From the NCBI GenBank assembly GCA_022826645.1, contig JAJDUM010000037.1:1-64000 (forward strand): a stretch of 64,000 nt of DNA, written 5' to 3'. The first letter of the stretch is position 1. Each line of letters opens with the position of its first letter. This stretch comes from Candidatus Poribacteria bacterium (GTDB lineage Bacteria; Poribacteria; WGA-4E; PCPOR2b). This document shows, piece by piece, positions 9,649 to 15,709 of the stretch. The position numbers and the translations under genes were made by a program. The notes beneath the pieces are model-generated. The model did no database searches and was not told where the DNA came from. It saw nothing but the letters and a program-made list of their open reading frames with translations.

Positions 9649-11571
9649 TTACCACCAGCTATACACGGAGGAGGTGAGGATGAGGCTTAGGATGGGCCAG
9701 AAGCAGCCCATCACTGCTTCGCCGAGTACCAGACCTACGAAGAAGGGAATCGCGGCACGATATGCTTTGATGCCGCCGTGCCTGATTAGCAGCCACTTGG
9801 TAGTCATTGCGATTGCTACAGGGAACCAGATCATATCTGTTGTACCGGGTGCAAGGCCGATAACATAGCCTGCCGGGTGAAGTGGACACCAAACGAAGCG
9901 CGCACGCAGAAACATTATACCGAGGTTCACGAAAAAAGCAAAACCGAGGACACCCATTGACAACCAATTGGTTGGCTTGGGATTGACCAACCACCCGGAG
10001 AGATAGTTGTAGGTTCCCGCCCCGCCGGCGTGAATCTGTTCAGATCCCGCAGCAACCCCTGTCTTGTAGATTGTATATGGGTAAAGGATGAGACTGGATT
10101 CAATGCCAACGATGCTGGCAATGATTAGCGCAATAAACATGGTTCGGTTTCTGATGTTGGTTCGTTCTGCAAGCTTGAAGGACTCCAGTTGGTCGGGTAT
10201 CGGGTGGGTACGAAATCCGGCACCGCTCATCCAGTTCATCAACGAGAGTATCGTTAAATTCCCCGGTTTTAGGCGTCGTGTCCCGAACATAGCGACCATC
10301 ATGTATTGTGGATTTATGTAGCCGATGGAATGAATCGGGGGACCCAGCTCCGCCCGCATACGCGCCAATCCGACAACGATTGCGAAGTAGAGACCGATGA
10401 AAACGGCGTAGCCCCAGAGCGACATCCCACCCTTTATGCAGAAAACCATCAACACAAGGAGACAGATAAACAGCGTGGCGACAGCAGCTCGGTAAGAGAT
10501 TGGCTCGTTTGCCTCATCATTTGGATCTGGACGGATGACACGCGAGAGGACTTGCAGAAAGTGTCTTCTGCCAGTCCAAAAGGTCACGGCGAGTAAAGCG
10601 AACAGGGCACCTGTGCCTTGCTCCCCCAAGAATGGATATCCGGGAATGCTCCTGATACCCGCCATGCTGCCAAAGACAAGTTGCGCCTTCCGCAAAAGGT
10701 AGAAGAAGGTACATGAGAAAGAGAGATCCAAGGGAAGGACGAATGAGAGACCGATGAGATATGGGTGAAAATAGAAAGAGGTACTGCCCATCGCATTCCA
10801 CGGTTTCTGTGAAAAACTGAAGACGTTTCTGGTACGATCATTAATGGGCAGAGAAGGGAGGATGGGGAAGAAAAACGCGATCCCGTTCCACAGGTCAATC
10901 CCGAAAGCGAGACCAAAACCGATCCACAGGACACGATTCCTGAAGATGCTTCCGGACGCGGCTGTGATTTCGAGGGGGATTTGAATAATTGGATAGGCTA
11001 ACTTCTCGCGCTCGACCCACTGTCTTCTGATGAGCGATGTTAGACAAAGGAAGATGAGCATCAATGAGAAGATGACGATCGACCACGATAGGATGGGCGT
11101 CACCCAATGCCGCACGTAGCCGTCCGCAAAGAAATTGACGTTCCCTTCGTAGAAATCGTTGACGGTCTTCGGGTCGGAGATAATCAACCAATCTGGCAGG
11201 TGATGGAACAGCAGCGCCGCCCAATCGTTTTCAGGGGTAGCAAAACGGAAGGCGTAGGGCATCAGTCCCATCAAGCGGGGCATGGCGTCGTGTCCAGAGA
11301 AGCAACTTCCCACCGCAAGCATCGCATAGATAACGAGAAGGTCCTGTTGATTGAGCGCAGACTTTGGCGAGATTTGACGGACAATGATGTTTAGCCACGT
11401 AATCATCAGGACAGCGAACATGACATTGACCGACAGCGAAACAGTCGTCAGATGCGCCGTATGCCATATCATTTCGACATAGGCGATCCAGTAGCTGTTG
11501 GCGATGATTAGCAGCACACCGATCAGCACCGCACGCTTTTTAATTGAGGTTGTCGTGTCTGTGTCCTTCAT
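9649..11571 (-). CDS. Polytopic membrane protein, DUF6784/DUF6785-like
   Basis: 640 aa with many hydrophobic segments; 'AELGPPIHSIGYINPQYMM' and overall layout recalled from this family. Confidence 0.6.
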   Translation of the reverse strand: MKDTDTTTSIKKRAVLIGVLLIIANSYWIAYVEMIWHTAHLTTVSLSVNVMFAVLMITWLNIIVRQISPKSALNQQDLLVIYAMLAVGSCFSGHDAMPRLMGLMPYAFRFATPENDWAALLFHHLPDWLIISDPKTVNDFYEGNVNFFADGYVRHWVTPILSWSIVIFSLMLIFLCLTSLIRRQWVEREKLAYPIIQIPLEITAASGSIFRNRVLWIGFGLAFGIDLWNGIAFFFPILPSLPINDRTRNVFSFSQKPWNAMGSTSFYFHPYLIGLSFVLPLDLSFSCTFFYLLRKAQLVFGSMAGIRSIPGYPFLGEQGTGALFALLAVTFWTGRRHFLQVLSRVIRPDPNDEANEPISYRAAVATLFICLLVLMVFCIKGGMSLWGYAVFIGLYFAIVVGLARMRAELGPPIHSIGYINPQYMMVAMFGTRRLKPGNLTILSLMNWMSGAGFRTHPIPDQLESFKLAERTNIRNRTMFIALIIASIVGIESSLILYPYTIYKTGVAAGSEQIHAGGAGTYNYLSGWLVNPKPTNWLSMGVLGFAFFVNLGIMFLRARFVWCPLHPAGYVIGLAPGTTDMIWFPVAIAMTTKWLLIRHGGIKAYRAAIPFFVGLVLGEAVMGCFWPILSLILTSSVYSWW

Positions 11572-11691: not shown

Positions 11692-12453
11692 TTAACGCTT
11701 CTTCAGCATACCCCAGGTGGTAGTCAGCTTATTACCCGGTTCAACGGATCGTCCTTTGAGACCGGTAACAAAAACATTGTCAAAGGCAGCGGTGGTGCCC
11801 TCTGTACCTACGCCGACACGCCCTCCTTTACTGCCGTTTATATCCTTTCCCTCAAAGATTAACTCATCGTCAAGGAACATTTGGATGAAGAGACCTTGAT
11901 TCAAAATTTTGATATGCAGGTCATCTCTTCCCAGCTTGTGTTTTGACTCAGGCCCTTTTTTGATGTCGGTAATGCCTCTGACATCTCGAATAACAAACGA
12001 TTCACTGTTCTTCCAACCGATCTCCCACCAAAACTTGATACGGGCTTTTTCATCGGCAAGCCGTCCTTTAACGGGAGCAGGGAGCGTAAAGGACCGGGCG
12101 TCGTCTCTGCCGGGACCGGGCTGCAGATCATCTTTGATCCGCCAAAAGATGCGAACCCCATTACTGCCCCTTAATTTTCTTGCGGTCAACTCAAAGATAT
12201 ATTCGTTCCAGGTATCATCCCAGAAATCATCCGAAACTACAGCGATAGTGCGCCCATCAGCTTGGCCCTGTTGAAGCGCGCCTCCCTGTACTTCCCATGC
12301 ACCTTGCAGCAATGACCATTTTTCCGCGGTACGGTTCGGCTTTGAAAAATTATCCTCAAACAGAACCTGCGCTGTAGCAGGCGAAGCAAGTACGATGAGC
12401 GCAACCAAGCACGCCCCTACAAAATTACATGGAATTGATAATACTTTCTTCAT
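11692..12453 (-). CDS. Secreted LamG/DUF1080-like protein with TWG tail (paralog 1)
   Basis: Signal peptide, 'VLFEDNFSKPNRTAEKWSLLQGAWEVQGGALQQG', C-terminus 'SVEPGNKLTTTWGMLKKR'. Confidence 0.65.
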   Translation of the reverse strand: MKKVLSIPCNFVGACLVALIVLASPATAQVLFEDNFSKPNRTAEKWSLLQGAWEVQGGALQQGQADGRTIAVVSDDFWDDTWNEYIFELTARKLRGSNGVRIFWRIKDDLQPGPGRDDARSFTLPAPVKGRLADEKARIKFWWEIGWKNSESFVIRDVRGITDIKKGPESKHKLGRDDLHIKILNQGLFIQMFLDDELIFEGKDINGSKGGRVGVGTEGTTAAFDNVFVTGLKGRSVEPGNKLTTTWGMLKKR

Positions 12454-12526
12454 ATCCCTCCCTTCTAGAGATAAACGATTGAATGCAATTATGGTAAAGT
12501 TTAGAATTAATTGGGCCCTCTGTCCC

Positions 12527-12550
12527 GGCGCAGTTAGAAACAGCGCCTAC
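12527..12550. repeat. CTAC-hairpin module GGCGCAGTT-AGA-AACAGCGCC-TAC
   Basis: Near-perfect inverted repeat followed by TACC. Confidence 0.5.
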
Positions 12551-12604
12551 CAAACATGGGTAGCAAAAGTGTCTACATATTTTGATAATTCACTATAAAT
12601 AGAT

Positions 12605-13414
12605 TTATCTACCAGTTTTCAGCGAACCCCAGGTGGTTGTTATTTTACCGCCGGGTTGGACACCTTGTCCCTTGAGATCGGTGACAACAAAATCAGAAAA
12701 TTCAACAGCTGTCGCATGGGTACCGAGAGCAATCCTGCCCCCCTTATTGGCACCATTGATTTCCTTGCCTTCCCAGACCAGTTCCTCATCAAAAAACATC
12801 TTAACAAGTATAGCATCATTTTCAATTCTGATGCGATGCTCTTTGTTTTTCGTGAGTTTGTGTTTTGAATCTGTGCCCTTTCTATCTCTGGCAAGTCCAT
12901 TAATGTCTCTCACCAGAACCGACGTTTTTGCCTCACGACCAAGATCCCACCAGAGTTTAATGCGACCTTTGCCTATGTCTTCGAGACGTCCTTTTGCACC
13001 GGCGTCGCCTAAACAGAATGAACTGTTAAAACCGCCGCCACACTCCCTGCCGATCTGCACTTTCATATCATCTCGGATACGCCAGAAGATCAAGGCACCA
13101 TTGTCGCCTCTGAGTTTCTTTACAGTTACCTCGAAAATATACTGCGTCAGTGCGGTCTCCTTGGCATCATATTCTTCTGGCCAAGCGGCATCTGACAGGT
13201 ATGCCATTGTGCGGTCTGCCACCGCTCCTTGCGTCATTTTACCGCCCTGAACCTTCCAATCCCCTACAGCGAACACCCAGTTGTTTTTCGATCTCTCTGC
13301 GTTTTTGAAGTTATCCTCAAAAAGGATTTTCGCCATAGCGGTAGAGGATAAAAAGAGGCTCATCATAGCGCTGGCGAATATGAGGGTGAATAGTAATGAT
13401 AGATTTCTTTTCAT
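12605..13414 (-). CDS. Secreted LamG/DUF1080-like protein with TWG tail (paralog 2)
   Basis: ORF 12605..13444, start MKRNLS at 13414 after GGAGGGAGC. Signal peptide, 'ILFEDNFKNAERSKNNWVFAVGDWKVQGGKMTQG', C-terminus 'GVQPGGKITTTWGSLKTGR'. Confidence 0.7.
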   Translation of the reverse strand: MKRNLSLLFTLIFASAMMSLFLSSTAMAKILFEDNFKNAERSKNNWVFAVGDWKVQGGKMTQGAVADRTMAYLSDAAWPEEYDAKETALTQYIFEVTVKKLRGDNGALIFWRIRDDMKVQIGRECGGGFNSSFCLGDAGAKGRLEDIGKGRIKLWWDLGREAKTSVLVRDINGLARDRKGTDSKHKLTKNKEHRIRIENDAILVKMFFDEELVWEGKEINGANKGGRIALGTHATAVEFSDFVVTDLKGQGVQPGGKITTTWGSLKTGR

Positions 13415-13654
13415 TTTAGCTCCCTCCTTATCTCTATAAAACAACTTGTTTTGAACTTTAGGATATCATAAGTACAGTGTTAAATTACTCAGGTTTGCAC
13501 CAATCATAAGGAACACCGGGGTTTTGTCGCTCTATTTCTCCGATGCTTAAACTTTTGTCTTGGGGTAAGAATCCATGAGATCTCGGCGTAGGCATCACGA
13601 TTAGAGTCAGCGCTGTGATCATATCATGTTTGTGTCAAACAAGAGATAAAAATA

Positions 13655-13690
13655 AAGCGTGATGTGCTGATTTAACCACACATCACGCTT
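13655..13690 (-). terminator. Intrinsic terminator downstream of 13710..14669
   Basis: Perfect 12-bp stem AAGCGTGATGTG/CACATCACGCTT, then TTATTTTTAT on the minus strand. Confidence 0.85.
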
Positions 13691-13709
13691 CATGATTTGG
13701 ACTATATAA

Positions 13710-14669
13710 TTACAGTCCTTGTTTTGCATTCAGTTTGATATTGCCCCAGGTTTGCGGGAGCTTGTCCTTCGGGCTGACAGCGCGCACACCGATGAACTGG
13801 AGATCACCGTAGATACAGACATTGTTGTCATTCTCAAAGGAAGATGCCCAAGAGATGGAACCTTCACGACTCTCGCCTGCGGCTTCATGGTCATTCATCG
13901 TGGAGTCAAATCCGACGACGACTCCATCTTCGAATTCCGCGGGCTTGATGGTCGATATGGTCATTCCCTCTTTATAGTCAAGGTGAACTTCCATGATCAT
14001 GCCATCACCGGTCTGGGTAGCCGCTGAATTTGCCGTACAATCTTCATCGAAGACGTGGACATCACCGAGAACAGCGTTCTGCCCATGGTTCCACCAGCAG
14101 GCAGGTTCGGAGGTGCCGGCGCCTGTCCACGGTTTAATCCGCCACCAGTGATCGCCGGGCTGCGGTTTACAGCAGTCAACTCCTGAGAGTTCCCGGTCAT
14201 CATTTCCCCTGGGTGTCCGGCAGGCGTTGTGCTCGAAGTCGAACTCAAGCCATAGCTCAGAAGTGTTCGGTGCGGTGGGTCCGCCTTTGTTCTTTGCCTC
14301 GCCGCTATTGATATCAGTGGGCAAATTCGCGTCCTTGATTACGCCAACGTAGTAAAGACGCTCCTCGTCAAAGAGAAATCCAAAGTCGTTACTCAGATCA
14401 TCAGCATCATCAATGGTGCCTCGACTCACTCGGTTTGGTGAGGTTTCCTCAAATAGGAACCAATCGGGAACGCGTTCGACATCCATGTGCATGTCGGCAG
14501 CCTGATACTCAGCCCAGTGTTCCTGAAACTCGTCATCAACCTTGCCATCAAGTTCAGGTGGCTTTTGTGCGAAGAAGGCTTTCGCTTTACCGCCCGAATG
14601 AGCAAAAACAAATGTTGCAGAAAATAGCATTATTAACGCCATCGTAAATAGAATAGCGTACCTAAACAT
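13710..14669 (-). CDS. Secreted CBM9-like sugar-binding-domain protein with TWG tail
   Basis: Signal peptide; 'ELDGKVDDEFQEHWAEY...FLFDEERLYYVGVIKDANL...ELWLEFDF' resembles CBM9-like domains; C-terminus 'AVSPKDKLPQTWGNIKLNAKQGL'. Confidence 0.6.
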   Translation of the reverse strand: MFRYAILFTMALIMLFSATFVFAHSGGKAKAFFAQKPPELDGKVDDEFQEHWAEYQAADMHMDVERVPDWFLFEETSPNRVSRGTIDDADDLSNDFGFLFDEERLYYVGVIKDANLPTDINSGEAKNKGGPTAPNTSELWLEFDFEHNACRTPRGNDDRELSGVDCCKPQPGDHWWRIKPWTGAGTSEPACWWNHGQNAVLGDVHVFDEDCTANSAATQTGDGMIMEVHLDYKEGMTISTIKPAEFEDGVVVGFDSTMNDHEAAGESREGSISWASSFENDNNVCIYGDLQFIGVRAVSPKDKLPQTWGNIKLNAKQGL

Positions 14670-14899
14670 GGTGTTATCTCCTCTTAATTTTTAATTAGAG
14701 TTAATTGATAAAGCGATGGTTAAAAACCATCTAAAATTGCGCAATTCATTGCGCCGTTAAACAACTCGGTTTTAATTTTTCAGACGCGAGACAACGGAAC
14801 TGATGCTGTACCCCGTCTGTTGACGCGCCACTGAACAGCTATTCATAGCGCGCTCACACTTTTTTTGAAAGCGATCAATCCCCCTCATACTGGCATGGG

Positions 14900-15709
14900 C
14901 TACTGTCCCGCTTTCAGTTCCCCCCAAACCGTTGCCAATTTACCTTTTGCTTCAACGGAGAAGGGATTCCCTTCAGGTGTTGTAACAAACACATCATCTA
15001 CCGTTATCTTGCCATTAACGGTGCCAAAACCGATACGACCTTCGCCCCCGATGTTGAGATCCTTTTTTCCTAAGGCTTCAAGGTCAACAATAGCTTCACC
15101 AAAATTTCCTGCAGCCACTGCTCCTGGTTGATCGCTTAGGTACAGCGCATAATACTTTGCCGAGTTTTCGACTTTGACATAATAGTCTTCGCCGGCACCG
15201 ATCTTTGTTTTGGTTTCGGTAATTTCGAATGCCTTGATAATAGTTCGCACATCACGTTGGACGACTGCACCACCCTGGTTGAACCACCAATAGATCACGT
15301 GACGACGACCACTCTCTTGCATCTGTTTGGGCAGACTACCGGCTGGAGAAAAGTTACCGCCCTGTGAACCATCACTATGAAACCGCCAGAAGATGGCTGG
15401 TTCAGAACCGGCCGAAATGCGGATTTTTGCGTAAAGCCAATAATCAACCCATTCTGGATCCCAGTGATCATCAGCCACTATGATTAGGCTTTTGTCACCC
15501 GATGTATTTCTTAATTCTCCGCCTTGAATGGTCCACTTACCGAGAGCGACATGCCACTTTCCTGAACCGTCTAATTTTCCGCCCCTGAAATTATCCTCAA
15601 ATAGGATCTCTATGGCTTGAACGAAACTCGGCGCGATGAGCGAGAAACCTGCCAGAACTGCAATTGTCACCAACAGAGATAATTTGGGCAAACTGTTAGT
15701 TTTGTTCAC
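14900..15709 (-). CDS. Secreted LamG/DUF1080-like protein with TWG tail (paralog 3)
   Basis: Signal peptide, 'ILFEDNFRGGKLDGSGKWHVALGKWTIQGGELRN', C-terminus 'SVEAKGKLATVWGELKAGQ'. Confidence 0.65.
   Translation of the reverse strand: MNKTNSLPKLSLLVTIAVLAGFSLIAPSFVQAIEILFEDNFRGGKLDGSGKWHVALGKWTIQGGELRNTSGDKSLIIVADDHWDPEWVDYWLYAKIRISAGSEPAIFWRFHSDGSQGGNFSPAGSLPKQMQESGRRHVIYWWFNQGGAVVQRDVRTIIKAFEITETKTKIGAGEDYYVKVENSAKYYALYLSDQPGAVAAGNFGEAIVDLEALGKKDLNIGGEGRIGFGTVNGKITVDDVFVTTPEGNPFSVEAKGKLATVWGELKAGQ

Follow-up and report, generated by a model that had tools for sequence, protein, structure and literature searches.

Poribacteria are a sponge-associated phylum of uncultured symbionts, dominant in many sponges. 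The DNA considered here, called the window in what follows, is a stretch of 64,000 nucleotides (nt) from a Candidatus Poribacteria bacterium (assembly GCA_022826645.1, contig JAJDUM010000037.1, positions 1 to 64,000). Between positions 11,692 and 15,709 four open reading frames (ORFs) stand in a row on the minus strand, each starting with what resembles a signal peptide and each ending in a version of the same short tail, built around the tripeptide TWG. A sequence-only reading of the region had described the four ORFs, their N-termini and the shared tails, and all are confirmed at the following places:

11692-12453, minus strand: LamG/galactocerebrosidase-lectin-like protein, predicted secreted, tailed, 253 residues
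11695-11748, minus strand: its TWG tail, SVEPGNKLTTTWGMLKKR (motif and four-tail profile)
12370-12453, minus strand: its signal peptide, about 28 residues, placed by hand
12605-13414, minus strand: LamG/CBM66-like protein, predicted secreted, tailed, 269 residues; AlphaFold2 gives a domain at residues 30-246, then a disordered tail
12608-12664, minus strand: its TWG tail, GVQPGGKITTTWGSLKTGR, predicted disordered (motif, profile and AlphaFold2)
13331-13414, minus strand: its signal peptide, about 28 residues, placed by hand
13710-14669, minus strand: CBM9-like protein, predicted secreted, tailed, 319 residues
13713-13781, minus strand: its TWG tail, AVSPKDKLPQTWGNIKLNAKQGL (motif and profile; Pfam for the core)
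14601-14669, minus strand: its signal peptide, about 23 residues, placed by hand
14900-15709, minus strand: LamG-like protein, predicted secreted, tailed, 269 residues, GTG start
14903-14959, minus strand: its TWG tail, SVEAKGKLATVWGELKAGQ (motif and profile; BLAST for the core)
15614-15709, minus strand: its signal peptide, about 32 residues, placed by hand

The folds assigned to these proteins at first sight, CBM9-like for the third and LamG-like for the others, also hold up. The third matches CBM9_1 in Pfam with E 1.1e-6. The first has a weak match (E 0.0018, under the gathering score) to the LamG-like lectin domain of GALC. Pfam gives nothing significant for ORF 12605-13414, and the solved folds nearest to its AlphaFold2 model are CBM66, the galactocerebrosidase lectin domain and L-type lectins. 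ORF 14900-15709 is a BLAST homologue of that protein, itself with no Pfam match.

The tail is 18 to 20 residues long, with the consensus [LF][AS]V[ES]Px[GD]KL[AT]TTWGx[LI]K, usually followed by one to four more residues, or approximately SVEPxGKLTTTWGxLKxxR. Within the whole window the motif is confined to the four frames, 5 to 10 residues ahead of the stop. The host genome (6.04 Mb in 127 contigs) holds many more. A degenerate DNA pattern of the motif finds 29 matches there and its reversal none, and a profile built from the four tails finds 88 matches, about 84 of them terminal, so the motif does not arise by chance. In the 84 terminal host tails W is invariant, and conservation is nearly as high at K(+4) (83/84), V(-10) (80/84) and G(+1) (76/84), followed by K(-5) (74/84), P(-8) and T(-2) (66/84 each). 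The end point is also narrowly set: six residues past WG in 39 of the 84 and seven in 22.

The same is true across the phylum. All 85 Poribacteria genomes, from 22 of 22 genera, carry the tail, with 30 to at least 108 copies per genome by a 64-row profile. Among 10,625 stop-to-stop frames, 348 of the 351 profile matches of at least 10 bits end no more than 15 residues from the stop, and a separate count of the motif gives 285 terminal instances against 2 internal. W is found in 306 of 306 tails and K in 99% of them. The sequence-only reading had expected a true tag to give many matches confined to C-termini, usually behind a signal peptide and across diverse domains, and had named as a sign to the contrary occurrence inside proteins and in cytoplasmic ones as often as at termini. 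The counts fall on the side of the tag.

Signal-peptide-like starts belong to 289 of the 306 tailed proteins, as against 216 of 729 other ORFs (Fisher p 4e-92) and 37 of 46 proteins with the C-terminal domain (CTD) discussed below; the test is a crude one based on hydropathy, not SignalP, and the loci were chosen for their tails, which makes the absolute rates rough. A few host frames end in the tail but lack a signal peptide (C121:69446, C65:10778, C39:50300, C84:535, C8:85455 and C102:5119), and these appear to be tailed genes copied in truncated or frameshifted form. Seven host contigs (C123, C82, C79, C24, C4, C31 and C26) bear tandem arrays of paralogous tailed genes for propellers and LamG proteins, which suggests repeated local duplication of surface-protein genes.

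What precedes the tail is varied. Stripped of their tails, the cores fall into 30 clusters unrelated by BLAST, and they include LamG, TolB propellers, Kelch/BNR, CBM9_1, CBM4_9, F5/8C, DUF4960 and DUF3108-like domains. Nearly every sampled family of secreted sugar-binding or propeller-type protein in Poribacteria ends in the tail. Between proteins whose cores are 24% identical (median) the tails are about 61% identical, and the figure is the same where the cores are 49% identical. A linker of variable length stands ahead of the tail. None of the 306 tails has a transmembrane-like stretch (17-residue window, Kyte-Doolittle hydropathy of at least 1.6, last 35 residues). In the AlphaFold2 model of ORF 12605-13414, made with 16 homologues, an ordered beta-sandwich closes with a strand at residues 227-246, and the tail at 249-269 has a predicted local distance difference test score (pLDDT) below 50. 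Diverse cores, identity independent of the core, the lack of a membrane helix and the predicted disorder together argue that the tail is a detachable terminal tag and not the last strand of a domain. Its distribution is that of a general C-terminal sorting or anchoring tag: strictly C-terminal, behind Sec-type starts, on unrelated cores.

The best-known tag of this sort is the CTD of the type IX secretion system (T9SS), and the tail turns out to have more to do with it than was first thought. The sequence-only reading had called the two analogous in logic but not in sequence. One correction applies: in many Poribacteria proteins a segment homologous in sequence to the tail stands immediately ahead of the T9SS-type CTD. 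The host genome has at least 62 CTDs of the N[YF]PNPFN type, one of which (on L067) is confirmed as TIGR04183, scoring 32.2 bits where the cut-off is 23. In 12 of the 62 a homologue of the tail lies directly ahead of the CTD, for example SVEPQSRYLTTLGKIKRTSLMQ-NFPNPFNPETW, while about 50 have no tail-like segment. Proteins in which such a segment abuts a TIGR04183-type CTD are found in 73 of the 85 Poribacteria genomes. The position of the invariant W is relaxed in them: 36 distinct copies ahead of a CTD have L in 26, W in 6, F in 3 and I in 1. A strict rule of W when terminal and L ahead of a CTD held in the host-genome sample, but it is not absolute, given the 6 copies with W. One TolB-type CTD protein aligns with its tailed relatives through the whole module, stopping at the edge of the CTD. 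In the AlphaFold2 model of this same protein, the module (residues 373-386, pLDDT below 50) lies between an ordered propeller, for which TolB is the nearest solved fold, and an ordered CTD.

The ends of 336 homologues of tailed cores complete the picture: 306 have the tail, 12 a CTD and 18 neither, and among the last are several degenerate tails and some dockerin-like ends. In the proteins of three loci (L312, L313 and L262), all homologous to tailed cores, a dockerin-like segment closes the chain where the tail would be. Dockerin_1 is confirmed on L313, whose core is DUF3108-like, a core that elsewhere is tailed. Since homologues of tailed cores end in tail, CTD or dockerin, the place of the tail can be seen as an address slot: it follows the last domain, just where sister proteins have a CTD or dockerin.

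The tail is not itself a CTD. None of the tailed proteins examined matches TIGR04183, and the disordered tail does not have the Ig-like beta-sandwich of CTDs, whereas a real CTD next to the module is predicted to be ordered. Nor is a CTD hidden by frameshift or readthrough: the 400 nt that follow each of 348 tails contain no CTD, only a single chance string in the wrong frame, and the stop codons are mixed. Lipoproteins are rejected as well, a lipobox-like match being present in only 2 of 87 tailed proteins.

Poribacteria do appear to have machinery to go with their CTDs. TIGR04183 domains in Poribacteria were already reported by Kamke et al. 2014, who saw no Por structural genes and left the route of secretion open (PMC3909097). 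A distant SprA (TIGR04189) is now seen in the host genome, where its blocks line up collinearly along a single ORF of about 2,200 residues (contig C24:133983-137651). SprA-like proteins occur in 84 of 85 Poribacteria genomes, including 56 of 56 good ones, and in 0 of 14 controls (E 0.001), with the curated cut-off exceeded in one Poribacteria genome only. Two PorU-like C25 peptidases of the host, on contigs C110 and C74, have E of about 1e-88 and scores below the cut-off. With SprA-like proteins across the phylum and PorU-like peptidases in the host, the question left by Kamke et al. becomes testable.

Is this machinery what reads the tail? A second lineage bears on the question. A strict tail pattern run against 85,462 species genomes gave, among the matches listed, 80 loci, 79 of them titled Candidatus or uncultured Poribacteria. 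The exception (L206), in a genome titled Pseudomonadota (G085), led to G085 and a second genome of the same group (G106; 3.1 Mb, main contig 2.84 Mb). Tails in these two rule out a strict restriction to Poribacteria. By way of negative control, 54 of 56 genomes of another phylum, that of G085, have no match to the tail profile at E 0.001. In G085 and G106 the tail is attached to cores of a different kind, divergent paralogues of about 340-390 residues among metalloprotease-ankyrin and related proteins, and the tailed families of the lineage (L206, L354-L364) are scattered over the 2.84 Mb contig. A poribacterial protein (L217, from MSPOR6) is a fused homologue of these cores, so gene transfer followed by expansion is the likely source of the lineage's tails. 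SprA gives no match at E<=1 in G106 or in G085, the latter a small and possibly incomplete metagenome-assembled genome. Since both are tailed, the tail is probably independent of the type IX translocon, and in the second lineage it could have a different reader.

I propose the tail as an address tag for Sec-exported Poribacteria proteins: short, unstructured and detachable, it would dock or sort them in the envelope through a putative receptor. Judged from sequence and predicted structure, I would put the probability of this at about 0.55. A tailed protein would first be exported by Sec. Its free tail would then be bound by the envelope receptor through the invariant W and near-invariant K, and the binding would dock the protein at or across the outer membrane, yielding the symbiont's surface coat of lectins and propellers. 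Relatives with a CTD would keep the segment in a W-relaxed form (TLG) as a linker, left in place or cut when the CTD is removed. The tail itself is terminal, linked to signal peptides, modular, predicted to be disordered, free of any transmembrane helix, phylum-wide, interchangeable with CTD or dockerin, and conserved independently of its core; receptor binding, surface location and any cleavage are what I propose to account for it. Sorting or anchoring, the function suggested when the tails were first noticed, is the one that I infer here.

Several points weigh against the proposal. No reader, receptor, processing enzyme or transporter was found among the recurrent neighbours of tail genes, which were read from stretches around tailed loci, and so the dedicated enzyme or transporter expected at the outset did not appear. 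The tailed set was picked by a tail profile, which somewhat inflates both the identity of tails and the invariance of W. Lectin and propeller cores predominate, and divergent beta-sandwiches may be related, in which case the diversity of folds is less than 30 clusters would imply. Finally, the change from W to L or F ahead of a CTD fits less well if the CTD proteins, once mature, use that same residue to dock.

The neighbours that do recur are generic (phytanoyl-CoA dioxygenase-like, DUF6785/6784 and FG-GAP/UnbV proteins, among others), with no clear candidate for a dedicated enzyme. A DUF6785/DUF6784 protein is near tail genes at seven loci (L269, L075, L060, L084, L080, L300 and L307), a raw recurrence. 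In the window, such a polytopic membrane protein of 640 residues (9649-11571) adjoins the tail genes.

The strongest alternative takes the tail for a minimal type IX signal, a short form of the CTD read directly by the SprA-like translocon in place of the domain of some 90 residues. The homologous segment that abuts the CTD in 73 of 85 genomes would then have an obvious meaning, as would the choice of tail or CTD on the same families of cores, and the SprA-like proteins and PorU-like peptidases are on hand. There is even a precedent in P. gingivalis, where export can be achieved with just the final 22 CTD residues (PMC5445135). Yet the tail corresponds to the linker ahead of the CTD, not to the last two CTD strands (PxGxYVV, KxxxK), and is predicted to be disordered both as a tail and ahead of a CTD. 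Two tailed genomes have no SprA match, and about 50 of 62 host CTD proteins lack the segment, which is therefore dispensable for export by CTD. I consider this explanation unlikely.

One might instead suppose that the tail governs stability or quality control, as a site for a periplasmic protease of the Prc/Deg type, or binds a chaperone. A short, disordered, strictly C-terminal peptide with hydrophobic W and L amid polar residues would serve. However, the modules found in the same slot, CTD and dockerin, are both concerned with delivery or attachment and suit sorting or anchoring better, and most carriers have surface-lectin-like or propeller cores. This makes such a role improbable. Still less probable is that the tail has no function and is a relic, the linker left behind when an ancestral protein lost its CTD. 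Its homology to the linker is what such a history would leave, but tails 61% identical on cores 24% identical, with W invariant and K at 99%, require selection. Besides, hundreds of copies stop within a few residues of one point, all 85 genomes have the tail, and no remnant of a CTD follows any of 348 tails. That all carriers share a fold whose last strand is the motif, many of them being indeed beta-sandwiches or propellers, is scarcely credible when the sandwich ends at residue 246 and the tail after it is predicted to be disordered, when residues 373-386 of the propeller form are so predicted too, when the nearest solved folds differ (CBM66/lectin and TolB) and when the linker ahead of the tail varies.

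If the tail is an address tag, it may, more tentatively, represent a new class of sorting tag in diderms: a disordered, helix-free peptide of 20 residues, recognized in the envelope by a receptor of its own and owing nothing to T9SS or to any sortase-like system. Such a tag would organize the whole lectin-rich surface of a phylum of sponge symbionts, and it would also have passed into one or more unrelated lineages. I would not bet on the whole of it. I found no description of the tail among openly licensed papers, an absence that is no proof of novelty.

The C-terminal tags known from Gram-negative bacteria fall into two groups: folded T9SS domains, and tripartite peptides that include a membrane helix. 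Like the T9SS CTD (TIGR04183), the tail is C-terminal, detachable and found by the dozens per genome on Sec-exported surface proteins with unrelated cores. It differs in having 18 to 20 residues rather than about 90, in lacking NxPNPF and GxY...KxxxK, in being predicted to be disordered rather than an Ig-like sandwich, and in its presence also in genomes with no SprA match. A type I dockerin is likewise a C-terminal docking module, which in Poribacteria takes the tail's place on a homologous DUF3108-like core, but it is a calcium-binding fold of about 60 residues and the tail a short disordered peptide. The IPTLxxWG-CTERM tag of NCBIfam has a WG pair within it, but tags of that type bear a transmembrane helix, which is absent from the tail, and the tail gives no NCBIfam match even at E 1. 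More generally, MYXO-CTERM with its myxosortase (PMC11980579) and the PEP-, PGF- and GlyGly-CTERM and LPXTG tags resemble the tail in being phylum-wide C-terminal tags with a short motif, borne by dozens of secreted proteins whose cores are diverse. They consist of motif, transmembrane helix and basic cluster. The tail has a transmembrane-like stretch in 0 of 306 cases and no cognate enzyme among its recurrent neighbours; on the tailed proteins examined no NCBIfam tag model matches it at E<=1, and its architecture excludes it from the helix-containing CTERM tags. Neither folded T9SS domain nor helix tag, the tail is nonetheless on more than 100 predicted secreted proteins in some genomes. It looks like a new kind of C-terminal label for delivery to the envelope or fixation there, and one short profile suffices to mark the candidate surface proteome of an uncultured symbiont.

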